The notes under the pieces: model-generated | The model's input: the letters and a program-made list of their open reading frames with translations, nothing else | Told to the model about the DNA's origin: nothing | The model's database searches: none | In this document: positions 971-20,326 of the stretch, piece by piece | Layout: every line of letters begins with the position of its first letter | Numbering within the stretch: the first letter of the stretch is position 1 | Translations under genes and position numbers: made by a program | Assembly (NCBI RefSeq): GCF_010091945.1 | Contig: NZ_WVIE01000035.1 | Coordinates: forward strand, 1-39,027 | Reading direction: 5' to 3' | DNA length: 39,027 nucleotides | Source: Myxacorys almedinensis A | Lineage (GTDB): Bacteria; Cyanobacteriota; Cyanobacteriia; Leptolyngbyales; Leptolyngbyaceae

Positions 971-1029
971 GACTGGTTAAAATCGGCTGGTTGAAAAATC
1001 GGCTAGTCGAAATTGACGGGTTGAAAATC
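971..1029. repeat. Four degenerate tandem copies of a 14-16 nt unit
   Basis: Between the divergent clpP1 and the 1044 gene there are four consecutive units: GACTGGTTAAAATC (971-984), GGCTGGTTGAAAAATC (985-1000), GGCTAGTCGAAATT (1001-1014) and GACGGGTTGAAAATC (1015-1029). They share the pattern G-R-C-(T/G)-(G/A)-G-T-(T/C)-(A/G)-AAA. The array ends 14 nt before the GTG start of the downstream gene, so it lies in that gene's leader or promoter. Confidence 0.6.
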
Positions 1030-1043
1030 ATTCCGAGGTAGCT

Positions 1044-1868
1044 GTGAAAAAGATTGGCTTAGTCTTACTCGTGCTGCTCGGCGGCACGCTTTCGGGTCTG
1101 TATTATTTTTGGCATCAAGCAACAAAACTTCCAGACTGGTATCAAGAAGGAACTCCGCAAGGCTCTGAAGGATCGCCAGAAGATATTGAGCAACGCGCGG
1201 CAACGGTTCAGCAAACGATTCAGGCGAAACTTCGGCACCGTCCTACCCCCTCTAGTTTGGCTACTGCCAGTTCTGGCAAACCGTCTGCCCAGGTTCCTCA
1301 GAGCCAACCTAACGGTGCGATCGCGAAAAAAGCAGTGGGCACCGTCCCCGCGCCAAGGTCTCGTCAAGATGTAGAAGTGCAGCTTAATCCGCAAGAACTC
1401 AATGACGTGTTGGTGTCTAAAATTGCCGAGCAGAGTCAAGCAAAGGCGCTGCCCAAGTCTGTGAAGAGTGTCCGGACTACGGTAGAAGCAGACACTCTGA
1501 AAACGGGGGCGATCGTGGATATGAAGGCGCTGAGAGAAAGCGATCTGGGCACTCAAGAGCAGACGTTTTTAACGGAGGCAGCCGCAAAGTTTCCGGGATT
1601 AAGCGATCGCAAGGTTTACATTGGCATCGAAGGGAAGCCTCGCATTCAAGACGGCAAAGTACAGTTTGATGATGAAACCCGAGTTCGAGTTGGCAACTTG
1701 AGGCTTACGATCGCAGAGATTGCCGAGCGCTTTGGTGTTTCTCCAGACCAAGTTAAAGAACAACTTGCCTTGAGGCTCCAGTTCAATAATCTGCATGTGA
1801 AAGATATTGAGTTGCTAAACGGAACCGCGATTCTGCGCGGATCGCCGACACCGACCACTGCTCCTTAG
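1044..1868 (+). CDS. Conserved hypothetical membrane-anchored protein
   Basis: The function is not recognised. The 274-aa product starts with Lys-Lys followed by a hydrophobic stretch (about residues 4-22, ending near LSGLYYFW), which looks like an uncleaved signal anchor because no clear signal-peptidase site or lipobox cysteine follows. The remainder, predicted outside the membrane, has a Pro/Ser/Gln-rich linker (about 60-105) and then a charged region with no cysteines or obvious catalytic motif. The start is GTG, with GAGG (1035-1038) six bases upstream. The stop is five bases before a possible start of the next gene (1874), so the two probably share a transcript. I believe similar proteins occur in other cyanobacteria, but that is recollection. 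Confidence 0.75.
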   Translation: MKKIGLVLLVLLGGTLSGLYYFWHQATKLPDWYQEGTPQGSEGSPEDIEQRAATVQQTIQAKLRHRPTPSSLATASSGKPSAQVPQSQPNGAIAKKAVGTVPAPRSRQDVEVQLNPQELNDVLVSKIAEQSQAKALPKSVKSVRTTVEADTLKTGAIVDMKALRESDLGTQEQTFLTEAAAKFPGLSDRKVYIGIEGKPRIQDGKVQFDDETRVRVGNLRLTIAEIAERFGVSPDQVKEQLALRLQFNNLHVKDIELLNGTAILRGSPTPTTAP

Positions 1869-1930
1869 GAAAGATGCCAACGAGGGATGAAGGCGGAAAA
1901 ATGAGACGTTTAGTTGTTCTTCCTGTTGCC

Positions 1931-3997
1931 ATGCCAAATCGTCTTGCCCGCGCTCAAAGTCTCTACTTACGCAAACATGCGGATAATCCGATCGATTGGT
2001 GGACGTGGTGCCCCGACGCGATCGAGACGGCACGACGAGACGACAAAATTATCTTTTTATCGGTTGGGTATTCAAGTTGTCACTGGTGCACGGTGATGGA
2101 GGGCGAAGCGTTTTCAGATGCCGCGATCGCAGCCTACATGAACGCTAATTTTCTGCCGATCAAGGTCGATCGAGAAGAGCGACCCGACCTCGACAGCATC
2201 TACATGCAAGCGTTGCAAATGATCACAGGGCAAGGCGGATGGCCACTCAACATTTTTCTTTCGCCTGATGACTTGGTGCCCTTCTATGGCGGAACCTATT
2301 TTCCAGTTGATCCCAAATATGGACGCCCTGGATTTCTACAGGTTTTGGAAGCTATTCGGCTTTACTACGATCACGATAAAACAAAGCTAGATGGGATTAA
2401 AGGAGAGATTCTGACTCATTTACAGAATGCTACTCTGCTCTCGCCCACAGCCCTCAGCGACACGTTGCTGCGACGGGGTTTGGACTATAGCGCTGGGGTT
2501 TTGTCGTCTAAATCGCCGGGTCCGAGTTTTCCGATGATTCCCTATGCAGAGGCTGCCCTGCGATCGGTGCGCTTTGCCTGGAATTCTCCCTATAACTCCC
2601 ACGAGGTTAGCGTTCAACGGGGCATGGATTTAGCGCTCGGAGGCATTTTTGACCATGTTGCAGGTGGCTTTCATCGCTACACCGTCGATCCCACATGGAC
2701 GGTGCCACACTTTGAAAAAATGCTGTATGACAATGGGCAAATTGTGGAGTATCTTGCCAATCTGTGGGCGATGGGCATTCGAGAGCCTGGATTTGAACGC
2801 GCGATCGCACTGACGGTGCAATGGCTCAAGCGAGAAATGACGGCACCAGAAGGCTATTTCTATGCCGCGCAAGATGCAGATAATTTCGCCACGATCGATG
2901 CCGCAGAGCCTGAAGAAGGCGATTTCTACGTCTGGAGCTTTGCCGAACTGCACTCCCTGCTCACCCCCGAAGAAGTTGCCGAACTGCAAACCCAGTTTAC
3001 GGTGACAGAGCACGGCAACTTTGAAGGGAAAACCGTATTGCAGCGGCGGCACGCGGGCAAACTCTCAGACTCGCTAGAAACTGCTCTGCATCACTTATTT
3101 GCTGCCCGATATGGAGCCTCCGCCGTGGATGTCTTTCCGCCTGCTCGCACGGCTGAGGCTGCAAAAACCATGGCGTGGTCGGGTCGCATTCCCCCAGTGA
3201 CCGATACCAAAATGATCGTTGCCTGGAATAGTTTGATAATTTCTGGATTGGCGCGATCGTATGGCGTTTTCCGAACGCTAGAGGATCTAGAACTTGCCAG
3301 CCAAGCCGCCCGGTTTATTCTGCAAAACCAGTGGGTAAACCAACGATTCCACCGGGTGAACTATGATGGCAAGATTGAAATTTTAGCGCAGTCGGAAGAT
3401 TATGCTCTGTTTATCAAAGCGTTGCTCGATCTCCATCAAGTCACCCGCAGCCTGCCCCCAAACGCCCCAGAACAGGAGACAGACTGGCTAGCCGCCGCCC
3501 TGCGCGTGCAAGCCGAGTTCGATGAATATTTGTGGAGCATTGAACTTGGCGGCTATTACAACACTGCAAAAGATGGAAGTCAGGAGTTGTTGATCCGGGA
3601 ACGCAGTTATGTCGATAGTGCTACACCCTCGGCAAATGGGATTGCGATCGCCAATCTCATCCGGCTCTCTCTCCTGACCGAAAACCTGGATTATTTCGAC
3701 CAAGCTGAACAAACCCTGCAAGCCTTCGCAAGCGTGATGGAACAATCTCCCTCAGCCTGCCCCAGCTTATTTTCCGCGTTGGATTGGTTCTGCAATCAAA
3801 CCCTGATTCAGACCACCCCAGAGCAAATTTCTCAGCTAGAAACGCAGTATCTTCCGACGGTGGCGTTTTCAGTCTTAAATCCGATGCCAGACGGTGCAGT
3901 GGCGCTAGTGTGCCAAGGGCTTAGTTGTCAGGAGCCGGCTCGAACTCAAGAACAGCTTCACACTCAAGTGCAGCAGAGCCTTGTGAGAAAAAGCTAA
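1931..3997 (+). CDS. DUF255 / thioredoxin-fold protein (YyaL, SPATA20 family)
   Basis: The N-terminus carries the family hallmark: NPIDWW, then GYSSCHWC with a CxxC pair, then MEGEAFSD, and the segment GQGGWPLNIFLSPD. The roughly 500 C-terminal residues resemble the (alpha/alpha)6 barrel half of this family, with HFEKMLYDNGQ and an ALDWF-type ending. Family members are widespread and poorly characterised. The CxxC suggests a redox or metal role and the barrel resembles sugar epimerases and glycosidases, so no reaction is assigned. Three starts are possible: ATG 1874, ATG 1901 (AAGG at a good distance) and ATG 1931, where conserved sequence MPNRLARAQSLYLRKHA begins. I chose 1931 by conservation, although no Shine-Dalgarno precedes it. 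It is convergent with ftsI, 37 bp away. Confidence 0.88.
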   Translation: MPNRLARAQSLYLRKHADNPIDWWTWCPDAIETARRDDKIIFLSVGYSSCHWCTVMEGEAFSDAAIAAYMNANFLPIKVDREERPDLDSIYMQALQMITGQGGWPLNIFLSPDDLVPFYGGTYFPVDPKYGRPGFLQVLEAIRLYYDHDKTKLDGIKGEILTHLQNATLLSPTALSDTLLRRGLDYSAGVLSSKSPGPSFPMIPYAEAALRSVRFAWNSPYNSHEVSVQRGMDLALGGIFDHVAGGFHRYTVDPTWTVPHFEKMLYDNGQIVEYLANLWAMGIREPGFERAIALTVQWLKREMTAPEGYFYAAQDADNFATIDAAEPEEGDFYVWSFAELHSLLTPEEVAELQTQFTVTEHGNFEGKTVLQRRHAGKLSDSLETALHHLFAARYGASAVDVFPPARTAEAAKTMAWSGRIPPVTDTKMIVAWNSLIISGLARSYGVFRTLEDLELASQAARFILQNQWVNQRFHRVNYDGKIEILAQSEDYALFIKALLDLHQVTRSLPPNAPEQETDWLAAALRVQAEFDEYLWSIELGGYYNTAKDGSQELLIRERSYVDSATPSANGIAIANLIRLSLLTENLDYFDQAEQTLQAFASVMEQSPSACPSLFSALDWFCNQTLIQTTPEQISQLETQYLPTVAFSVLNPMPDGAVALVCQGLSCQEPARTQEQLHTQVQQSLVRKS

Positions 3998-4034
3998 AAA
4001 CGCCCCATTTTGCGGGTATGGCTTGATTTGGGAT

Positions 4035-6059
4035 CTACGGCGTTGAAGACGGGGCTGGAACTGGCTCAACCCCAAGGCTTTCGGCTGGACTCAACCCCTC
4101 GATCGCGCTTGCCCCAGGGCTGGGAGCCACCGTTGCAGCAGGCTGACTCGGCGGCATCTGATCGAGGGTAATCAGGGCATCGATCACCGCTTTCACGATC
4201 GGAGCCGCCACCGTCGAGCCAAACGCATCTTCTCCCTTCGGCTCATCAATCACCGCCGCTACCACATAGCGCGGATTCTCGACCGGAAAGATAGAAACAA
4301 AGCTGGTGATCTTGGCATTTTCCTGATAGCCGCCACTCGCACTTGCCTTTTGCGCCGTTCCAGTTTTGCCAGCAATGCGATAACCCGGCACTTGAGCCGC
4401 TTTGCCACTGCCCTTTTGCACAACCGACTCCATCATTTGAAGCACCGTTTGTGCCGTTTGGGGTGAGAAAATTTGCTGGGGCTGGGTCTGCCGCACAGGT
4501 TGCCAGTAGGGGTGCCCGGCTTCGTCGTACAAGCCTTGCACCACATGGGGCGTCAGCAACTTGCCCCCGCTTGCCAAAATGCCGTGCAGTTGCACCAGTT
4601 GAATGGGCGTTAGCGAAAATCCTTGTCCGAAGGCACTTGTTGCTGCATCGATCGCCGATTCGGTGAACGTCTTGCGGTCTTTAAGCTGTCCCGCAATTTC
4701 AAACGGCAGATCAATGCCGGTGGGTTGTCCAAGTCCAATTTTTTGCAGCCAGTTGTAGTAGTTATCGCGCTGCATTTGTTGCATGATGTGCACCATGCCG
4801 ACGTTGCTAGAGCGCTCTAGAATCTGCGTGACGCTAGTTGCGCCCCGTGCTCCGGCGGTGGAGTAGTCAAAATTTTGGATTGGCCACTGGTCAACATAAA
4901 TAGAGCCTTCGTCATTAAAAATCTGATCTGGTCGAATGGCTTTTGTTTCGAGGGCGATCGCAACATTAAGCGGTTTAAATGTTGATCCCGGTTCATATAA
5001 ATCCGTCATTGCCCAGTTTTTGAACCGCTCGACATTGGCTTTGTAATATTCGTTGGGGTCGTAAGACGGCTCAGAAACCAGCGATCGCAGCGCGCCATCG
5101 GCGACATCCATCACCAGAACGACACCCCGTTTAGCGCCATATTTTTTCACCTGCTGCTGAAGCGCGCTCTGGGCAGTGCGTTGGACTCGGCTATCAACGG
5201 TCAACTGCAAATGCAGATTGTCAATATGCAAAAATCCACCGGGAATCCGATCGGGCATCATCGATCCCAGCCCCGTCCGGCTCAGGCGAACTGATTTAAT
5301 CGAGCGCTGCAATAAATTTTTGTGACTGTGTTCAATGCCAGCCTGACCTTGCTGATCTACATCTACATAACCCACCACATCAGCCGTGAGATGCTGCTGT
5401 GGATACAGGCGTTGCTGCTGTTGTGCTAGATCTATCCCATCAATCTGTAAATTTAGCAGCCGATCCGCCGTATTCTCAGAGAGCGCCACTTCTAGCCGAA
5501 TGCCGCTCTCTGCGGTATCGAGTTTGCGTAAAAGCTCTCCGGCAGACTTACCCAAAATCGGAGCTAGCTTTTCAGCCACCGTTGTTTTAGGTTCTTTAAA
5601 CGACACTGGATGAGCATAGAGGGTGTAAACCGGCTGATCGATGGCTAGCACGTTGCCTATGCGATCGACAATGGGGCGACGGGGAATAAACGGGCGTAAA
5701 AAAATGGTTTGCTGCGATCGCGCTTGTTTTAGCAAATCTGGAGCCTGAATGACCTGAAGCCGCACCAAATTGAGCACCAGCAGCACCATTGCACCGAGCA
5801 ATACCGCCCATACCATCACCAGCCGCCGGGCGCTCGGTTTGGCGTGCGCCGTCCGAAGGCGCTCTAGCAGCCGCCTCATCCCAGCATTGCCCGGACGATT
5901 TAGCCCCAAACTGTTAGTTGCCAAGCGAGAAGAGCGCGATCGCAGATCAGACAGCAGGGTTGCCAATGTTGCCGAAACAGGCTTTGAGCCACGCTGCGAG
6001 GCTGGCAGACGCATCTGAGTTGGGCGTAAATGATTTGTGGGTTTACTCCGCTTCACCAT
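4035..6059 (-). CDS. ftsI: Peptidoglycan D,D-transpeptidase FtsI / penicillin-binding protein 2
   Basis: This is a class B penicillin-binding protein that cross-links septal peptidoglycan in the periplasm. A long basic cytoplasmic tail (1-78) precedes a single membrane anchor (about 79-99), then a PBP dimerisation domain (about 120-270) and the transpeptidase domain. The three penicillin-binding motifs are intact: S359-T-F-K362 (nucleophile and lysine), S417-S-N419 and K565-T-G567. The C-terminus is a Pro/Ala/Ser-rich tail after about residue 635. The 674-aa length exceeds E. coli FtsI mainly because of the N-terminal tail and this extension. The gene lies 32 bp downstream of the FtsL-like gene, the order seen for ftsL-ftsI in many bacteria, which supports a division rather than an elongation role. 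Confidence 0.93.
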   Translation of the reverse strand: MVKRSKPTNHLRPTQMRLPASQRGSKPVSATLATLLSDLRSRSSRLATNSLGLNRPGNAGMRRLLERLRTAHAKPSARRLVMVWAVLLGAMVLLVLNLVRLQVIQAPDLLKQARSQQTIFLRPFIPRRPIVDRIGNVLAIDQPVYTLYAHPVSFKEPKTTVAEKLAPILGKSAGELLRKLDTAESGIRLEVALSENTADRLLNLQIDGIDLAQQQQRLYPQQHLTADVVGYVDVDQQGQAGIEHSHKNLLQRSIKSVRLSRTGLGSMMPDRIPGGFLHIDNLHLQLTVDSRVQRTAQSALQQQVKKYGAKRGVVLVMDVADGALRSLVSEPSYDPNEYYKANVERFKNWAMTDLYEPGSTFKPLNVAIALETKAIRPDQIFNDEGSIYVDQWPIQNFDYSTAGARGATSVTQILERSSNVGMVHIMQQMQRDNYYNWLQKIGLGQPTGIDLPFEIAGQLKDRKTFTESAIDAATSAFGQGFSLTPIQLVQLHGILASGGKLLTPHVVQGLYDEAGHPYWQPVRQTQPQQIFSPQTAQTVLQMMESVVQKGSGKAAQVPGYRIAGKTGTAQKASASGGYQENAKITSFVSIFPVENPRYVVAAVIDEPKGEDAFGSTVAAPIVKAVIDALITLDQMPPSQPAATVAPSPGASAIEGLSPAESLGVEPVPAPSSTP

Positions 6060-11856: not shown

Positions 11857-12621
11857 TCAAACTTCATAACTAGCAAGGTTAAACCATTGGCTCAAAGACT
11901 CGCTTAGAACGATTTCAATCCGTTCAGCCACCTGTAGTTCGCTGCCGCTCGCATCAACTCGGACAAAGCGCTGAGGCTCTGTTTGGGCGAGGTGAGCAAA
12001 TCCGTGCCGCACCCGTCGATGGAAGTCAACATCCGCTTGCTCAATGCGATCGCCGATAGGTGAGCTTCCTTGGGAATCGCCGATAGGTGAGCTTCCTTGG
12101 GAATCGCCGATAGGTGAGCTTCCTTGGGAATCGCCTTTTCCCCGTTGCTGCATTCTCGCCAAGCCTGTCTCTACGTCTAGATCAAGCCAAAGGGTCAGAT
12201 CGCTTTGCAATCCCTGCGTAGCAATTTGGTTTAGATGCCCAATCAGGGTGAAATCCAATCCTCGACCGTAGCCTTGGTAGGCAATCGTTGAATCGGTGTA
12301 GCGATCGCACAAAATCAAATCATTTGCTGCTAAATGAGGTCGCAAGAATCCCTCAACATGCTGAGCGCGATCGGCAGCATACAGTAACAATTCCGCCCGA
12401 TCGTGAATCGCTTCAGACGCAGGATTTAGCAACAATTGCCGAATGGTCGTTCCGAGGGTTGTGCCACCTGGTTCGCGAGTGAGAATTAAATCTTTGATCA
12501 CCCCTCGCTTTTGCAGCGCTGGCAGCCATCGACTATTTGAAAGCCACTGCCGCGATCGCGCCAACTGCGTAGTCTTACCACAGCCTTCAGTCCCTTCAAA
12601 AACAATCAGTTTTCCGGTCAT
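11857..12621 (-). CDS. tmk: Thymidylate kinase with a tandem-repeat insertion
   Basis: Tmk phosphorylates dTMP to dTDP in the cytoplasm. The P-loop EGTEGCGKTTQ, the LTREPGGT segment and LCDRYTDSTIAYQGYGRG are all present. The family is usually 205-215 aa; this one is 254 aa. Part of the excess is three exact tandem copies of GDSQGSSPI between ARMQQRGK and DRIEQADVDFHRRV, which is the lid region that closes over the nucleotide. The reading frame is kept, and the residues before and after the insert are well conserved, so the enzyme may still work with a longer flexible lid. The remaining extra residues lie near the N-terminus around LSNSRWLPALQKRG. The stop overlaps a possible TTG of holB. Confidence 0.93.
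   Translation of the reverse strand: MTGKLIVFEGTEGCGKTTQLARSRQWLSNSRWLPALQKRGVIKDLILTREPGGTTLGTTIRQLLLNPASEAIHDRAELLLYAADRAQHVEGFLRPHLAANDLILCDRYTDSTIAYQGYGRGLDFTLIGHLNQIATQGLQSDLTLWLDLDVETGLARMQQRGKGDSQGSSPIGDSQGSSPIGDSQGSSPIGDRIEQADVDFHRRVRHGFAHLAQTEPQRFVRVDASGSELQVAERIEIVLSESLSQWFNLASYEV
12051..12135. repeat. 27-bp tandem repeat, three exact copies plus a 4-nt start of a fourth
   Basis: Exact copies occupy 12051-12077, 12078-12104 and 12105-12131, each beginning CGCCGATAGGTGAGC and ending TCCTTGGGAAT; CGCC at 12132-12135 begins another. The period is a multiple of three and the array is in frame inside tmk, where it encodes GDSQGSSPI three times on the minus strand. Confidence 0.95.
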
Positions 12622-14113: not shown

Positions 14114-16501
14114 TTAGCCTTGGGAGGAAGAAAAAGAGTGTCTGAGCAACAGAGAATTGCTGACTACACTAACGGAGCTAAATGCCATTAAAGCACCTGC
14201 GGCGGCAGGACTGAGCAAAAGCCCCAGGGAGGGAAGAAGCACACCTGCTGCGATCGGGATGCCTAGCAAATTATAGGCAAATGCCCAAAATAAGTTCTGG
14301 CGAATTTTACGAAACGTCGCACGGCTGAGGCGAATCGATTCCACCACATCAGATAAGCGATCGCGCATCAAAACAATTCCAGCCGTCTCGATTGCCACCT
14401 CAGTTCCAGATTTTAGCGCGATGCCGATATCCGCTTGAGCCAGGGCAGGCGCATCGTTGATGCCGTCCCCAACCATGGCAACACACTGCCCCTGGGCTTG
14501 CAGTTGGGCAATTTTAGCCGCTTTGCCCTGGGGCAAAACCTCTGCTAGCACCGAGTCAATGCCCACTTCTGCCGCGATCGCATGGGCGGTGGCGTGGCGA
14601 TCACCCGTCAGCAAGACGACCCGAAGCCCCATGCCTTTCAGCGTAGCGACGGTGGCTTTGGCATCTGCTCTCAGCACGTCTGTCACCGCCAGCAGACCCA
14701 CCAGCGATGACGCCAGCGCCACGTAGACCACCGTTTTTCCTTGAGCCGCCAAATCCGCCGCTTGAGCATGAACGGTCTGCTCTATCTTCACCTGATGCTG
14801 CTCCAGCCAAGCCGCAGTCCCCAACAGCACGGGCTGATAGGTGCCTTCCCACAACACGTTGGCAGAGACGCCAAACCCGGCTTCGGTATAAAAATCTTGA
14901 GCCGCCAGTTCCGGTACTGCTTGCTGACGGGCGGCTTGGGTGATGGCTTGCGCCAATGGGTGACGTGTGCCCCTTTCCACCGAGGCTGCAAGCTGGAGCA
15001 AGGGAACACCGGTTTGAACCACCAACGAGTCGGTCACGATGGGTTGCCCGGCGGTTAAGGTGCCGGTCTTGTCAAAGACAATCGTATCGAGGTGATGAAC
15101 TTGCTCTAAAACATCTCCCCCGCGAATCAGCAAGCCCCGCTCGGCTCCGATGCCTGAGCCAACGAGAATGGCGGTGGGAGTGGCAAGCCCAAGAGCACAG
15201 GGACAGGCAATCACCAGCACCGCGATCGCGAGTTTTAAGCTCAGAAGTTGGGACGATGAGTGTGGCTCGGCGCTATGCATCATGGCGTGTTCTGCGCCCA
15301 ATAAGGCATAGTTGGACTGCATCACCACCTCTGCCCAGACATGAGTGCCGATCAAAAACCAAAAGCAGAACGTCAGGGTGGCGATCGCCATGACGCCGTA
15401 GGTAAAGTAGCCTGCGACCGTATCGGCAAGGGTTTGAATCGGGGCTTTACGGGCTTGTGCCGCTTCTACCAAGCCGATGATCTGGGCGAGGGTGGTGTCT
15501 TGTCCGATCCGGGTGACCCGCAGCGCGATCGCACCCGACTGATTTAGGGTTCCGGCTGCCACATCGTCTCCAGGCTGCTTTTGAACGGGAAGCGGTTCCC
15601 CCGTGAGCATCGATTCGTCCACCGTGGTCTGCCCTGCCACCACTTCGCCATCAACGGGTATTTTCTCCCCAGGCAACACTTGGAGCCATTCTCCCAGCCG
15701 CACCTCTGCGATCGGAACATCGATCGGGGCTTGGGTAGCTCCGGCTCCTTGCTCAATTCGTCTTGCCGATTGAGGCTGCAACGCAAACAAAGCGTGCAGG
15801 GCAGATGCGGCGCGCCCTCGTGCCCGTTGTTCTAGGGTTCGTCCCAACAAAATGAAGCCAACGAGCATCACGGGTTCATCAAAAAAGCACTCCCATCCCA
15901 ATTGGGGGAATAGTAGCGCGACTAAGCTGGCGGCAAAGGCGCTGATCGTGCCCAGGCTCACCAGCGTATTCATGTTGGGCGCGTTGCGGCGCAATCCTCG
16001 CCAACCGTCTACCACCATCGACCGTCCGGGGAACAGGAGGGCTGCCGCCGCTAAGCCGCAGTGAAACCAAATATTGCTCAGTCCCGGAATGACCACTCCA
16101 GTGAACTGATTGAGATGCCCGATGGTGGAGAGGACGAGCAGCAGAATCGCGATCGCCAGCCGTTGATTTTGCTGCTGATGCTCCTGGGATCGCCGCTCAG
16201 CTAAGTCCACAAATTCTGGCTGACCTGCTGACGATCTTGGCTGGCTCGGAAATCCAGATTCTGTCAACCTCTCCGCAAGACTAGCCGGATCGACACTCGG
16301 TTCACAGGCAACCGTCGCCAGTTCTGTAACTAAATTGACGGTTGCGCTCAGCACACCAGGATATTGCGTCAATTGCTGTTCAACCGCGCTCACGCATCCT
16401 GCACATTTCATTCCGGTCACATCTAGGGTGATGGTTTCGGGTTTGGAGGTCTCCTCGGTTGCGATCGACAAGAGGTTCTCAGGCAAAATATCAGGCTCCA
16501 C
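14114..16501 (-). CDS. ctaA: Copper-transporting P1B-type ATPase (CtaA/PacS-like)
   Basis: This membrane ATPase moves monovalent copper. It has an N-terminal heavy-metal-associated domain with MKCAGC (Cys33, Cys36), the transmembrane CPC metal site in [12 protein letters not shown], the phosphorylation motif DKTGTL, the actuator motif TGEP, the HP locus in RHPLAQAI, and [16 protein letters not shown] in the hinge region. The length of 795 aa and eight predicted helices fit P1B ATPases. In cyanobacteria CtaA imports copper towards the cytosol and PacS loads the thylakoid. The MKCAGC form of the metal site is, as I recall, the CtaA one, so the symbol is given with moderate confidence. The start is a GTG without a clear Shine-Dalgarno. 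The gene diverges from the coiled-coil gene at 16770. Confidence 0.9.
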
Positions 16502-16653
16502 ACAAGCGTCTATCTTGAGCGTAGATGATGTTTTGCCAAATTAACGTGCGATCGCTAACTTTTCTAGATCGCGATCGTTCAGTGTAAATCGTAAAATCGG
16601 TAAAAGTTGAAACGTTTGCTTAGCATTTTTGAAACTTTATACTTATGGCTTGA

Positions 16654-16667
16654 ATGATGCGAATCAT
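16654..16667. promoter_or_regulatory. Small inverted repeat between ctaA-like gene and the 16770 gene
   Basis: ATGAT (16654-16658) and ATCAT (16663-16667) form an inverted repeat around four bases, in the 268-bp divergent intergenic region. A second inverted repeat, CAGTC-TTCTA-GACTG, lies nearby at about 16701-16715. Either could be an operator for one of the two flanking genes; no known metal-regulator box is matched well. Confidence 0.25.
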
Positions 16668-16769
16668 GAGTTGACAGAGGAACTTCAGCCGAGTTCACCA
16701 GTCAGTCTTCTAGACTGTGTAAGAGCAGAATTAGACTAAGTAAAACTACTACCGTTCGGGGTACAACGT

Positions 16770-17546
16770 ATGTCGTCTATGCGAAGAGGGGATCGAAGAA
16801 ATGAATCTGACGACAATGCCATGAATCACCCTCGTTCCCGGCAATCAGAACCTGCTTCTCCCCACGCGGATAGGCAAGTTCTAGCGACGGTACGCGCACA
16901 GCGAAACGAAGCACAGGTCGAGCGAGACAACTGGCAAAAAGTTGCCCAGGAAAAAGAACAGCAAGCAGAACAGACGCACCATCTGTATTTAGAAGAACAA
17001 CAGAAATATCAAACAGCCCTGACGCTCTATCAAGAGGAGCAAACTCAGTCAAGGTCATATCTGATGCAGTTTGAAGAAGCTCAGACGCAAGCCACATCCT
17101 ACTTGACGCTGTATCAAGACACCCAAACACAAGCGCAGTCTTACCTGACGCTGTATGAAACCGAGAAGGCACGAGGCGATGAGTTGTCCATTACATTTAA
17201 GGAAGTTGAAACTCAGCGCGATCGCTACTTGACGTTGTATACCGAGTCTCAAGATCAACTTAAGGTTGAACGGCGCTCTAAAGCTGGCATCAAGGGCTGG
17301 GAAACGCGACGCAAGCGGGAAAATCAACAGTTGAAGCAAGAGATTTTAGAGATGACTGTTTTGCTCCGAGATTCTCTAGATCGAAAAGAGGAGGCAGTCG
17401 ATAATTTGTACGTTTTGGCGGATCGGATGGATCGCATTCAGCAGCTTGTTGATTCGGTCGATGAGGATTCTACGACAAATCCGATAGGTGTCGTTCAGAA
17501 ACTCCAGCGTATATGGCAGATGGTCAAGGAAATTCTTGCAGAGTAA
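16770..17546 (+). CDS. Unknown helical protein with seven 14-residue repeats
   Basis: The function is not recognised. The 258-aa product is highly charged, Gln/Glu-rich and probably cytoplasmic. Residues 68-165 are seven consecutive 14-residue repeats without gaps: one diverged copy at 68, then 82, 96, 110, 124, 138 and 152. The clearest unit is SYLTLYQDTQTQAQ, and the consensus is x-Y-L-T-L-Y-x-x-x-Q-T-Q-x-x. Fourteen residues equal two heptads, so a long helix is likely, but the hydrophobic residues cluster in the first half of each unit, unlike an ordinary leucine coiled coil. A basic segment follows (RRSKAGIKGWETRRKREN, 168-185), which could bind nucleic acid, and then a second helical region (186-258). 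The next gene starts 9 bp later. Confidence 0.85.
   Translation: MSSMRRGDRRNESDDNAMNHPRSRQSEPASPHADRQVLATVRAQRNEAQVERDNWQKVAQEKEQQAEQTHHLYLEEQQKYQTALTLYQEEQTQSRSYLMQFEEAQTQATSYLTLYQDTQTQAQSYLTLYETEKARGDELSITFKEVETQRDRYLTLYTESQDQLKVERRSKAGIKGWETRRKRENQQLKQEILEMTVLLRDSLDRKEEAVDNLYVLADRMDRIQQLVDSVDEDSTTNPIGVVQKLQRIWQMVKEILAE
16971..17264 (+). repeat. 42-nt coding repeat, seven copies
   Basis: The DNA counterpart of the 14-residue protein repeats. Copies start at 16971, 17013, 17055, 17097, 17139, 17181 and 17223. Adjacent copies share stretches such as TACTTGACGCTGTATCAAGA and TACCTGACGCTGTATGAAAC, while the outer copies have diverged at synonymous and non-synonymous sites, which suggests old duplication followed by selection on the protein. 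Confidence 0.8.
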
Positions 17547-17555
17547 GAGGGATGG

Positions 17556-18041
17556 ATGAGCAATGATTCTTCGATCGTCAAAGTGGTGAGTAGAAGAATG
17601 GCTGGCGATCGCATTCGCAATATCGCCGATCGATTAAAGCAGGAAACAGCGTTGCAAATCAAAGCAACGTCTCGCATTTTAGGGGCAGCCGCTCAGATTT
17701 CAGAAAATCACGATCGGCTGATCAATGAAGTCGTTGAAATGGTGGAGGAGGATTTTGAGCAACACCCTCCAGCGAAAGGGATCAACGTGTTGACGATTGA
17801 GCAACTCAAGCATCGGTTTGGAACGTTAAATCAGGCAAAGGCGCATTTTGCTACGAAGGCAAACAGTTGGGCGTCTCTGGTTGAGAAGCTCAACGAGCCA
17901 ACGGCAACTCCACCTTCCCATCAAGATGAGGCGGCTGTTGATGCGCGATTGGCAGCAATCGAGAGTGATCTCAAAACATTACGAACGGATCTAAATCAGG
18001 CTTTGAGCCTATTAGACCTGATCTTGAAAAAGGTTTCCTAG
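17556..18041 (+). CDS. Unknown helical protein, partner of the 14-residue-repeat protein
   Basis: The function is not recognised. The 161-aa product is soluble and helical. It has a basic N-terminus (VVSRRMAGDRIRNIADRL), a central segment (PPAKGINVLTIEQLKHRFG, then AKAHFATKANSWASLVEKL), a Pro/Ser/Gln linker near 115-125, and a C-terminal heptad-like helix (ARLAAIESDLKTLRTDLN) that could pair with another coiled coil. GAGG (17547-17550) lies five bases before the ATG, and the gap from the upstream gene is only 9 bp, so the two are almost certainly one operon and their products may interact. There are no cysteines and no catalytic motif. No cotranscribed gene follows. Confidence 0.8.
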   Translation: MSNDSSIVKVVSRRMAGDRIRNIADRLKQETALQIKATSRILGAAAQISENHDRLINEVVEMVEEDFEQHPPAKGINVLTIEQLKHRFGTLNQAKAHFATKANSWASLVEKLNEPTATPPSHQDEAAVDARLAAIESDLKTLRTDLNQALSLLDLILKKVS

Positions 18042-18086
18042 AGCAGAGAACCGTGCTGCTTAATCAGCTTGGGTAATAAACAAGAC

Positions 18087-18272
18087 CTAATCTGACGGCT
18101 TTGATCGGCGGCAAACCTCAACCCAAGTCGAAACTACCCCCCCTGCCGCAATGATCAGCAACAGTTCTGTGCTCAACACAGTATTCACGTTCAACTCAGA
18201 CAACCCATTAAAGCCAGCCATGCCGAGAATGACACACCAAAAAAATAACGTTGATCTCTGAAATTTCAGCAT
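18087..18272 (-). CDS. Small two-helix membrane protein
   Basis: The 61-aa product has two hydrophobic segments, STLFFWCVILGMAGF and LLLIIAAGGVVSTW, joined by a short polar loop, and a basic C-terminus (CRRSKPSD). No family is recognised. It lies directly after the CPBP protease gene on the same strand. A GTG at 18287 would make it overlap that gene by 11 bp; the ATG at 18272 leaves a 4-bp gap and begins MLKFQRSTLF. Neither start has a good Shine-Dalgarno. Tight linkage suggests joint transcription with the protease. Confidence 0.6.
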   Translation of the reverse strand: MLKFQRSTLFFWCVILGMAGFNGLSELNVNTVLSTELLLIIAAGGVVSTWVEVCRRSKPSD

Positions 18273-18276
18273 TCGC

Positions 18277-19836
18277 TTAAGCGCCACTTCCGCCGAGTAA
18301 AAACAGCGTCACTAGTGTGCCGCTATTCCACAGCGCATGTAACAAAATCGATGCCATCAAATTTTGAGTCCGGGTGTAGACAAACCCCAGAATAATGCCC
18401 AACGTCATCAGCGGCAACACTTCTGAGAGACTGAGATGCACCACAGCAAAGATTAAACTACTGAGCAGAATCGATTGCCACGTTGAAAAATATTTAGTGA
18501 GAGACGAGAGCAGAAAGCCTCGAAAAAAGGTTTCCTCAAACAACGGAGCCGCGATCGCGGCGGTTGCCAAAAAAATCATCAGCGCGATCGGATCGCGACC
18601 CTCTAGCGCCACCGACAAAATTGGATTGCTGCCGCCCCGCCCTTGCCAGATCAAGCTGTTGACCCACGACACCGCCACCACGAGCGGATACGCTGCCGCA
18701 TAGCCGCCCAATCCCCACCAAAACCAGTTGCCCCGCAAACTAAAGCGGAACCAGCCTTCTGGCAACGGAAGGAACGATCGGATCGACCCATACAAAACGC
18801 CCAAGCCCCCCGCCGCCAGCAGCACGTACGTCGAGAGCGACAACAGCGATTTTTCGCGCACAGAAAAGGCAGCCGACTCTATATGAAAGACGGATTGAGC
18901 AATGCCCAAGCCAATCGGCAACAGCAGCGCGCCAATCAGAACTTGTCCGACAAAAAAGAAGCCCACAATCAACACTTGCCAGATAATTTCCCAATCCCAC
19001 GGAACTGCCCACGTCACAGCATCCGTTCCGGCAAGCAGGGCTTGTTTTCCTCTAATAGCGCGTTGAGCAATCAGAAAAATCAGCACACCGATGCCGATCA
19101 CTATCGCGATCGCCGGAACGGCATTTGCCCCTGCCCACTTTAGAAATGCCTGTTGTGCGGATTGTTGCTGCACCGTCCGCAGTTGAGCGAGATCCTCGGA
19201 GCGCTGCTGGAGGTCGTAAAGTTTTGCGAGTCCCTGGTAGCGAAACCACCCGTTGAGGTTTTGTTTGAGAATCGGTTCGGCTTTGGGCGAAATTTTTGCA
19301 GGCTTGCTCCACAGGTCGCTCAGAACCGACGCTGTGTTTTGAATAGAAGTTGAGACCGGACGTTGATTCAACGTTGAGCGCACCGTTCGCGGGGGTTCTG
19401 GCACAGGATCAATCGCAGATGGCACGCTCTTAAGCTGTGACCACGTTGCGATCGCAGCCGCTACTTGATTTTCTTGGGCTTGCAGCACCCCGATTCGCAC
19501 ATCTAGCTCATTGAGCAACGACTGCTGCTGTCGCAATTGCGCCGTCGCCATCGGGCTGCTGGGGTCGTCTATGCGAGAGTGCAGAGTTGCGATCGCGCCT
19601 TCCGTTGATTTGCGTGTTTTTTGGTAAGCCTCTAGTGCGGTTTGCACCGGTTTTTCCCCAGACCCATTGAGTTGCTGTGCGCCCTGCCATTCCGACGCTT
19701 GTAGCAATAGATCCGTCTCGTAGAGCGTTAAGCGGCTTTGAAATTGCGGCTGATTCCAGCTTTCAAACAAACTGAGGAATACGGAAGCTGCCGCAACCAG
19801 GGTCAAAAGCCCTAGAAAGATTCGCTTAGCTGTCAT
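18277..19836 (-). CDS. CPBP (CAAX-like) intramembrane metalloprotease
   Basis: The C-terminal half carries the CPBP family motifs: EETFFRGFLLSSL (the EExxxR glutamates), FAVVHLSL (metal-binding His) and ILLHALWNSG (second His). These residues sit in the membrane, and bacterial members cleave or modify membrane proteins, peptides or immunity factors; the substrate here is unknown. From the chosen ATG the 519-aa protein has a first helix (about 5-22), a large extracytoplasmic region (about 25-235) with heptad-like Gln-rich stretches, and then at least six more helices. That large insert before the protease domain is a form I recall from cyanobacteria. The frame is open to 20001, but those 55 residues are not hydrophobic or conserved-looking, so ATG 19836 (MTAKRIFLGLL) is used. 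Confidence 0.88.
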   Translation of the reverse strand: MTAKRIFLGLLTLVAAASVFLSLFESWNQPQFQSRLTLYETDLLLQASEWQGAQQLNGSGEKPVQTALEAYQKTRKSTEGAIATLHSRIDDPSSPMATAQLRQQQSLLNELDVRIGVLQAQENQVAAAIATWSQLKSVPSAIDPVPEPPRTVRSTLNQRPVSTSIQNTASVLSDLWSKPAKISPKAEPILKQNLNGWFRYQGLAKLYDLQQRSEDLAQLRTVQQQSAQQAFLKWAGANAVPAIAIVIGIGVLIFLIAQRAIRGKQALLAGTDAVTWAVPWDWEIIWQVLIVGFFFVGQVLIGALLLPIGLGIAQSVFHIESAAFSVREKSLLSLSTYVLLAAGGLGVLYGSIRSFLPLPEGWFRFSLRGNWFWWGLGGYAAAYPLVVAVSWVNSLIWQGRGGSNPILSVALEGRDPIALMIFLATAAIAAPLFEETFFRGFLLSSLTKYFSTWQSILLSSLIFAVVHLSLSEVLPLMTLGIILGFVYTRTQNLMASILLHALWNSGTLVTLFLLGGSGA

Positions 19837-20326
19837 GGATCTACCTGTGCCTACATGTCTCTGAGCATTTACGTTAGCACGGGATGAATAAGAGTGAAGG
19901 ACAACAGTAGCGGCTCTTAAGTATGATTCGCTTTGACAGCAAGGGCGATTGTTCCGATTTCTCAATACACTTGGCGGCAGTGATGTAGAAATCCGTGTCA
20001 AAACTAAGCCTGGGTCTAGTTCTCAGGCTCAAACAAAGGTTGTCACTGTCTAGAATCGAGAAGCTTGTGCGATCGCATCTCTATGCAAAGCATTGGTATA
20101 TAAAAGCTCAATCTGAACGGCTCTATTGGATTATGAATGGTTTGCAGGCATCCGCGATCTCTGAATTTGCTGAATCTTCGGAGAAGCGCTTCTCAATCGC
20201 TCTAAACTCGTTCCTAAAACCTTCTAGAGAACAGCAGGCTCGACTCCCACAGATCTACACACATCCAAATCACGGTAGAATCATTCTGACTTTTGCCCCA
20301 ATCTAGAAAAACAGGGAGGAACCCGT
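19837..20326. other. 490-bp divergent intergenic region without a convincing gene
   Basis: This separates the CPBP protease (-) from the histidine phosphatase (+) and should hold both promoters. A 103-codon open frame at 19995-20306 (GTG start, no Shine-Dalgarno, irregular composition) crosses it; I regard it as chance. No strong -35/-10 pair or palindrome stood out. Confidence 0.4.

Follow-up and report, generated by a model that had tools for sequence, protein, structure and literature searches.

What might a protein built on seven contiguous 14-residue repeats do in a cyanobacterium, and which gene does it work with? The window, by which we mean the whole 39,027-nucleotide stretch of Myxacorys almedinensis A DNA analysed here, encodes such a protein as gene 1, whose open reading frame had been described correctly in an earlier note on the sequence. 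That note missed gene 2, the partner gene, which lies downstream of gene 1 in 62 of 63 named loci, the sole exception ending at a contig end. Together the two genes represent a real, apparently undescribed family and accessory module of cyanobacteria. Our preferred reading, to which we assign a probability of about 40%, is that their products join in a nucleic-acid-binding coiled-coil scaffold of two proteins. The module consists of the following parts:

16567..18087, no strand assigned: the whole cassette, absent from the same site in the same-genus genome G001 (blastn against the G001 locus L239)
16629..16658, plus strand: a weak site of sigma-70 type within the cassette, ahead of gene 1 (site scan)
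16770..17546, plus strand: gene 1, the rod protein, 258 amino acids (open reading frame call, homologues and dN/dS)
17556..18041, plus strand: gene 2, the partner protein, 161 amino acids, starting 9 nucleotides after gene 1 (downstream in nearly all loci)

The product of gene 1 can be divided into four segments:

16770..16859, plus strand: conserved N-terminal tail, residues 1-30 (MRRxDRR..DN..P.SR..EP; alignment and model)
16971..17264, plus strand: seven 14-residue units, residues 68-165, a heptad coiled coil inside helix 31-232 (period test, heptad tests and model)
17268..17324, plus strand: conserved basic segment ERRSKAGIKGWETRRKREN, residues 167-185 (alignment)
17325..17543, plus strand: conserved C-terminal helix and tail (..RMDRIQxLVDSV..NPxGxxQKxxRIWQAxxEILAE; alignment, with helices to 232 and 238-257)

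The seven gap-free units reported for residues 68-165 are indeed there: shifting the sequence against itself by 14 residues gives 26 identities, where shuffles average 8.4 (z 6.5; maximum among 2000 shuffles, 17), and a shift of 28 gives 21 against 7.1. In order, the units read QTHHLYLEEQQKYQ, TALTLYQEEQTQSR, SYLMQFEEAQTQAT, SYLTLYQDTQTQAQ, SYLTLYETEKARGD, ELSITFKEVETQRD and RYLTLYTESQDQLK, and the alignment shows the pattern to be common to the gene 1 homologues. Every letter of the 14-residue consensus proposed previously occurs in four or five of the seven units, but units 1 and 6 fit it poorly. The 42-nucleotide DNA repeats underlying the block are also genuine (122 of 252 matches at a lag of 42, where 500 codon shuffles give 71.9; z 6.7), and the roughly 48% identity between copies implies that the DNA copies are old. 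In the repeat-finder check that had been proposed, Tandem Repeats Finder at its default threshold did not return the 42-nucleotide repeats, the DNA copies having drifted too far.

How are these repeats folded? According to the earlier note, hydrophobic residues fall in only the first half of each unit, and the protein is not a standard leucine-heptad coiled coil. The first statement is nearly right, but several units carry A, V, Y or L at positions 9 or 13, which are core positions. The second is wrong or at best incomplete, since a tyrosine-rich heptad core (a/d) runs through the rod. Two heptad positions stand out in gene 1 as hydrophobic (in 19 of 29 and 18 of 29 cases; next best 10 of 28), and the hydrophobic power at 3.5 residues is matched by only 1 of 1000 shuffles. 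Over 62 of the 64 sequences, hydrophobic residues make up 97, 65, 65 and 53% at the four a/d positions of the 14-residue frame, the most hydrophobic phase being mostly Tyr; in one of the two heptads a pair of flanking phases, mostly Leu, reaches 76 and 57%. This phase pattern implies that each 14-mer is two heptads, differently decorated. Gene 1 thus encodes a heptad coiled coil, with 3-4 a/d spacing on an extended helix, and the heptad tests dispose of a repeat of non-coiled-coil type; its tyrosine core and leucine flanks make it an unusual coiled coil.

An AlphaFold2 model built on an alignment of 31 contains the regular helix across residues 68-165 that the earlier reading presupposed. A single helix is predicted to run from residue 31 to 232 (202 residues, or about 30 nm), with blocks of ten residues in the rod scoring a pLDDT of 95-98; a final helix spans 238 to 257. 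The N-terminal tail is mostly without predicted structure, with pLDDT below 50 at residues 1-12 and only a short helix at 15-19. Both ends of the protein are strongly conserved, namely the N-terminal motif and the C-terminal part from ERRSKAGIKGWETRRKREN on. The basic segment does follow the repeat block, as had been noted; 18 of its 19 positions are invariant or at least 90% conserved over 31 rows (the gene 1 alignments leave out L059 and L067, the latter cut by a contig end), and nine lysines or arginines fall within residues 166-190. It is a candidate nucleic-acid contact, although its model confidence is below that of the rod, which counts against the nucleic-acid scaffold.

The suggestion that gene 1 belongs to no known family has been borne out, as searches of Pfam, NCBIfam, PHROGs and PADLOC turned up nothing convincing; an Allantoicase match (Pfam E 0.068, NCBIfam 0.015) was rejected as weak or partial, and the variant L059, whose contig is as long as that of L152, has no Pfam match above cut-off. 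In the open-access literature we found no report of the motif strings, the 14-residue repeat or the gene pair. Homologues of gene 1 are patchily distributed, in 42 of 388 class genomes and 10 of 58 relatives (own genome included in each count). An alignment-based scan of genome contigs gave 118 pattern stretches, from which come the 63 named loci, all of them presumably cyanobacterial, judged by title or genus; the same kind of scan with the single gene 1 protein gave no matches. Anabaena sp. PCC 7120 does not figure among these named carriers. In the Calothrix variants L129, L146 and L152, the N-terminal tail has been swapped for another domain, of about 190 amino acids.

The survey of other cyanobacteria recommended earlier shows that rod length does vary, whole proteins ranging from 199 to 588 amino acids. 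Measured from the EP motif to ERRSKA, rods come in 26 distinct lengths, of which 11 are divisible by 7 (binomial P 5e-4, a guide only, since the sequences are related) and a further 6 are 3 mod 7; above 200 residues, only one of seven distinct lengths is a multiple of 7. This analysis anchored 50 of 64 sequences, the other 14 being truncated, variant or missed by the pattern. Rod length thus appears to change preferentially by whole heptads. Values of dN/dS over five homologue pairs (0.07-0.32 for gene 1) and five pairs for gene 2 (0.12-0.37) indicate that purifying selection acts on both genes.

The pairing of the two genes is nearly absolute. Besides the 63 named loci, gene 2 accompanies gene 1 in 32 of 33 loci and in 70 of 72, the 72 of the neighbour set being the named loci plus the window and 8 of 32 retrieved ones; because the 33- and 63-locus sets overlap, these counts are not independent. 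In the phylum sample, all nine loci with a full-length partner match carry gene 1, own genome included; the partner matches there number 14, five of them restricted to the region of the mini-domain. A frameshift interrupts the partner gene in L039 (2419 region, draft contig) and L093, through sequencing error or decay, and the partner alignment excludes L039 and L067. Two segments of gene 2 are of interest:

17601..17762, plus strand: partner N-half helix, residues 16-69 (GDRIRxIAxxLxxExxxQIKATSRILGAAAQIxxNHDRLIxEVVEMVEEDL; model, and tandem viral copies)
17790..17894, plus strand: 36-residue mini-domain (TxxxLKxxFxTLxxAKxHFxxKAxSWxxLVxKLN; profile, homologous in other module types)

Gene 2 matches no Pfam, NCBIfam, PHROGs or PADLOC family above cut-off. 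Matches to MscS_porin (0.021), the SA1320 family (0.0086), a PHROGs exonuclease (0.0048) and a DdrA-like anti-restriction protein (0.017) were rejected as below cut-off or partial, as were two PADLOC PDC-M14B models (E 0.0028 and 0.021) matched over only part of their length. A low-confidence model of the partner (pTM 0.28) has a helix at 16-69, three short helices within 81-113 and a helix at 122-160. The three short helices predicted there make the mini-domain look HTH-like by eye; it has no Pfam HTH match, and Foldseek with the same model returned nothing at E<=0.001. Comparison of the partner profile with solved structures gave 12 matches at E<=1, the best a designed coiled coil (0.014), which we take as chance. 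Neither gene matches a Pfam DNA- or RNA-binding family; like the by-eye basis of the HTH likeness and the empty Foldseek result, this counts against the nucleic-acid scaffold.

Is the pair part of a larger unit? The flanks of the cassette, at window positions 14129-16566 and 18088-19939, align by blastn to 975-3425 and 3437-5285 in G001 (79 and 77%), where 11 bp take the place of the 1521-bp cassette comprising both genes, 203 bp upstream and 46 bp downstream. G001 has no match to gene 1 or to the mini-domain, and the two genes flanking the cassette are adjacent there. The two genes are thus either both there or both missing, as a single segment, at one position in the chromosome. Seven genomes were searched for the flanking genes, the alignment at the site being to G001 only; these genes lie roughly 0.7-1.7 kb apart in G021, G029 and G003, far apart in G006 and G033, and on different contigs in G008. 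No transposase or integrase was recognised within the 1521 bp. The sigma-70-like site upstream of gene 1 is not evidence of function, since four such sites were found on both strands against 1.6 (sd 1.4) expected, and the same scan found no plus-strand terminator-like site.

A conserved wider operon can be rejected: gene 2 is the only widely conserved neighbour, and the other shared neighbours are clade-level or Uma2-like, genes that we take to be Uma2-like lying near gene 1 in 12 of 72 loci. Nor is gene 1 a plasmid gene, with one copy in 72,556 plasmid records (Nostoc sp. MS1), or a phage gene, since a search of 50,697 phage records found neither gene 1 nor gene 2. On the Nostoc plasmid, pNSMS101 (L069), type I-MYXAN cas genes are found about 1.5 kb downstream of the module. 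Elsewhere in the window, positions 12049-12135 hold exact 27-bp tandem repeats (3.2 copies, 100% matches) that encode GDSQGSSPI three times in frame, within an open reading frame (11857-12621, minus strand) that is presumably a thymidylate kinase gene.

Although no viral contig matches gene 1, two IMG/VR contigs (L156:3816-6818 and L157:4581-5651) encode proteins with two tandem copies of the partner N-half domain. When a 224-residue piece of the L157 protein that includes its C-terminal part was compared with phage records, 226 of them matched, most from cyanophages. Among the 20 of the 226 matches listed, 18 are confined to the last quarter or so of the piece, a separate motif, and the other two, to phage Bellamy at 23% identity, extend over most of its length.

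The mini-domain profile matches 62 of 378 class genomes, own included. We read 27 mini-domain loci picked from matches outside the window's own type (type 1), and assigned types by reading. Ten have a type-2 second gene, which ends in the same mini-domain as gene 2; in nine of these (L200, L201, L203, L204, L205, L207, L212, L213 and L214) it stands behind a predicted coiled-coil gene of 165-241 amino acids, a rod that starts MKNLNR and has a conserved basic SRNSMRGRLGN-like stretch, and in L202 it is alone. Nine have a type-3 second gene, and in eight of these (L193-L198, L208 and L209) the small mini-domain protein comes second, behind a gene with a HicA-like domain plus coil; L199 has no such gene upstream. 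The HicA domain is an RNA-binding domain. Pfam HicA_toxin is found in five of the eight type-3 rods at E<=0.1 (best 1.2e-4), but the one score listed is 21.6 against a Pfam cut-off of 27 bits, a point against the nucleic-acid scaffold. A fourth kind accounts for one locus. In three the mini-domain is joined to a J-domain-like part, in one it lies at the end of a Ser/Thr kinase, in two it belongs to membrane-like proteins with extra copies (two or three by eye) and in one it is elsewhere; the J-domain-like, Ser/Thr protein kinase and membrane-like loci are among L188, L189, L190, L192, L191 and L211. Because it also turns up in kinase, J-domain-like and membrane-like proteins, it may be a binding module of general use, which again counts against the nucleic-acid scaffold.

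Pairwise hhalign comparison shows homology of the mini-domain between types 1, 2 and 3 (E 6e-10, 1e-12 and 2e-8). Homology of the rods is not demonstrable between types 1 and 2 (E 0.011, probability 4%), types 2 and 3 (probability 12%) or types 1 and 3 (E 0.0076, 5%, collinear at the C-termini), a further point against the nucleic-acid scaffold. In the heptad-power test, which took three of nine type-2 and three of eight type-3 rods, the power was reached by 3-4 of 1000 shuffles for the three type-2 rods and one type-4 rod, and by 0, 44 and 51 of 1000 for the type-3 rods. Similar short basic peptides open the type-1 rod (window 16770) and both the type-2 rod and its partner (L201:1661 and L201:2206).

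How might the pair work? Gene 1 would dimerise or oligomerise through its Tyr/Leu core, and gene 2 would bind the rod via its own long helices. The basic KAGIKGWETRRKRE segment, in continuous helix beside the coil, would grip DNA or RNA, with the HTH-like mini-domain of the partner as a possible second contact. Such a complex could tether or organise nucleic acid, with rod length setting the spacing, a mode of action like that of plasmid KfrA-KfrC without being KfrA. We favour this nucleic-acid scaffold because of the basic segment in a continuous helix, the HTH-like mini-domain, the HicA-like domain of a sister rod and the near-absolute pairing.

Rather unlikely, in our judgement, is a cytoskeletal or septal scaffold in which the rod polymerises, the partner caps or anchors it and the basic segment serves assembly. 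The modelled rod with its unstructured head would suit such a role, and the named carriers include many filamentous genera (Leptolyngbya, Nodosilinea, Nostoc, Calothrix, Tolypothrix and Oscillatoria), but Hydrococcus rivularis and a Thermosynechococcaceae MAG, which are not known to represent classic filamentous genera, are carriers too. Multicellular cyanobacteria are also described as richer in coiled-coil-rich proteins, some of them filament-forming (PMC7002697, as far as the text consulted goes). A very patchy spread (10 of the 58 relatives) and gain or loss of the module within a genus are difficult to reconcile with such a scaffold. A signalling adaptor acting via the mini-domain would be one example of a minor, lineage-specific role for an ordinary coiled-coil pair, and the mini-domain in kinase and J-domain-like proteins is consistent with it; we consider this improbable, because invariant N- and C-terminal positions over diverse genera, together with near-absolute pairing, imply a specific function.

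A conflict or defence module, whether toxin-antitoxin-like or an anti-phage device with the phage N-half copies as decoys, falls in likelihood between the cytoskeletal scaffold and the ordinary pair. The clean presence or absence at one site and the tandem partner-like domains on two viral contigs, one with a C-terminal part matching cyanophage proteins, speak for conflict, and HicA_toxin in five of eight type-3 rods and the closeness of type I-MYXAN cas genes (1.5 kb) to the single plasmid copy point the same way. The N-terminal domain of one Calothrix variant, L129, weakly matches a defence-RT-associated PADLOC model (E 0.0065), but that of L146, of similar kind, has no PADLOC match. Known anti-phage systems would be recognised by a PADLOC model over most of the protein; gene 1 has no PADLOC match, gene 2 none of that extent, neither was matched in the phage records, and no catalytic site was recognised in type 1. 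Recognised neighbour clusters in at least four loci look like housekeeping genes (presumably an NADH dehydrogenase subunit, homoserine kinase, phosphoenolpyruvate synthase and a cytochrome), which argues mildly against defence islands. Least probable of all the proposals is an undescribed class of accessory two-gene devices of cyanobacteria with a rod plus a mini-domain partner, in which the 14-residue-repeat, SRNSMRG and HicA-like rods are interchangeable and act on nucleic acid against phages, the phage tandem rod-side domains being decoys. If the pair is a defence device, the phage-borne domain copies offer a ready test.

Whichever reading is correct, an unnamed cyanobacterial family gains an anatomy, a near-constant partner and a natural comparison of presence and absence at one chromosomal site, and one shared mini-domain ties the module to its sister modules. 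Among known systems, the filament-forming coiled-coil-rich proteins Fm7001, Syc2039, Slr7083 and HmpF of cyanobacteria (PMC7002697) resemble gene 1 by description, as coiled-coil-rich hypothetical proteins chosen for an unstructured head and tail, but the text consulted in that source describes no partner gene of the gene 2 kind for them. Bacterial intermediate-filament-like proteins are marked by a long coiled coil with an unstructured head and tail; the gene 1 model has a rod and such a head, and its C-terminal part is mostly helical. HicA is described as having a dsRBD-type fold, and HicA domain proteins as including SMC-HicA fusions (PMC10865869, in the part consulted); the likeness extends to the type-3 sister modules only, where a HicA-like domain is joined to a coiled coil. 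Unlike HicAB, the window pair has no HicA match at E<=1 in Pfam or NCBIfam, and the second genes have no HicB match in Pfam.

The nucleic-acid scaffold that we prefer is closest in conception to KfrA-KfrC. Neither gene matches the KfrA family, represented in Pfam by the KfrA N-terminal DNA-binding domain, at E<=1 in Pfam or NCBIfam. KfrA-KfrC is plasmid-borne, unlike the window module with its one copy among the plasmid records. As the sections consulted of PMC7783346 describe it, KfrA binds DNA, oligomerises by a helical tail and forms a complex with KfrC. KfrA and KfrC of plasmids RA3 and IncP are likewise two alpha-helical proteins encoded by nearby accessory genes, one of the two having a long coiled-coil tail and a nucleic-acid-binding part, the latter a candidate only in gene 1; the DNA-binding part of KfrA is N-terminal and globular, whereas the basic segment of gene 1 is C-terminal to the repeats (same sections). 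Should the complex bind nucleic acid, cyanobacterial chromosomes would have their own equivalent of the KfrA-KfrC scaffold, one in which the rod is lengthened or shortened in evolution largely by heptads.
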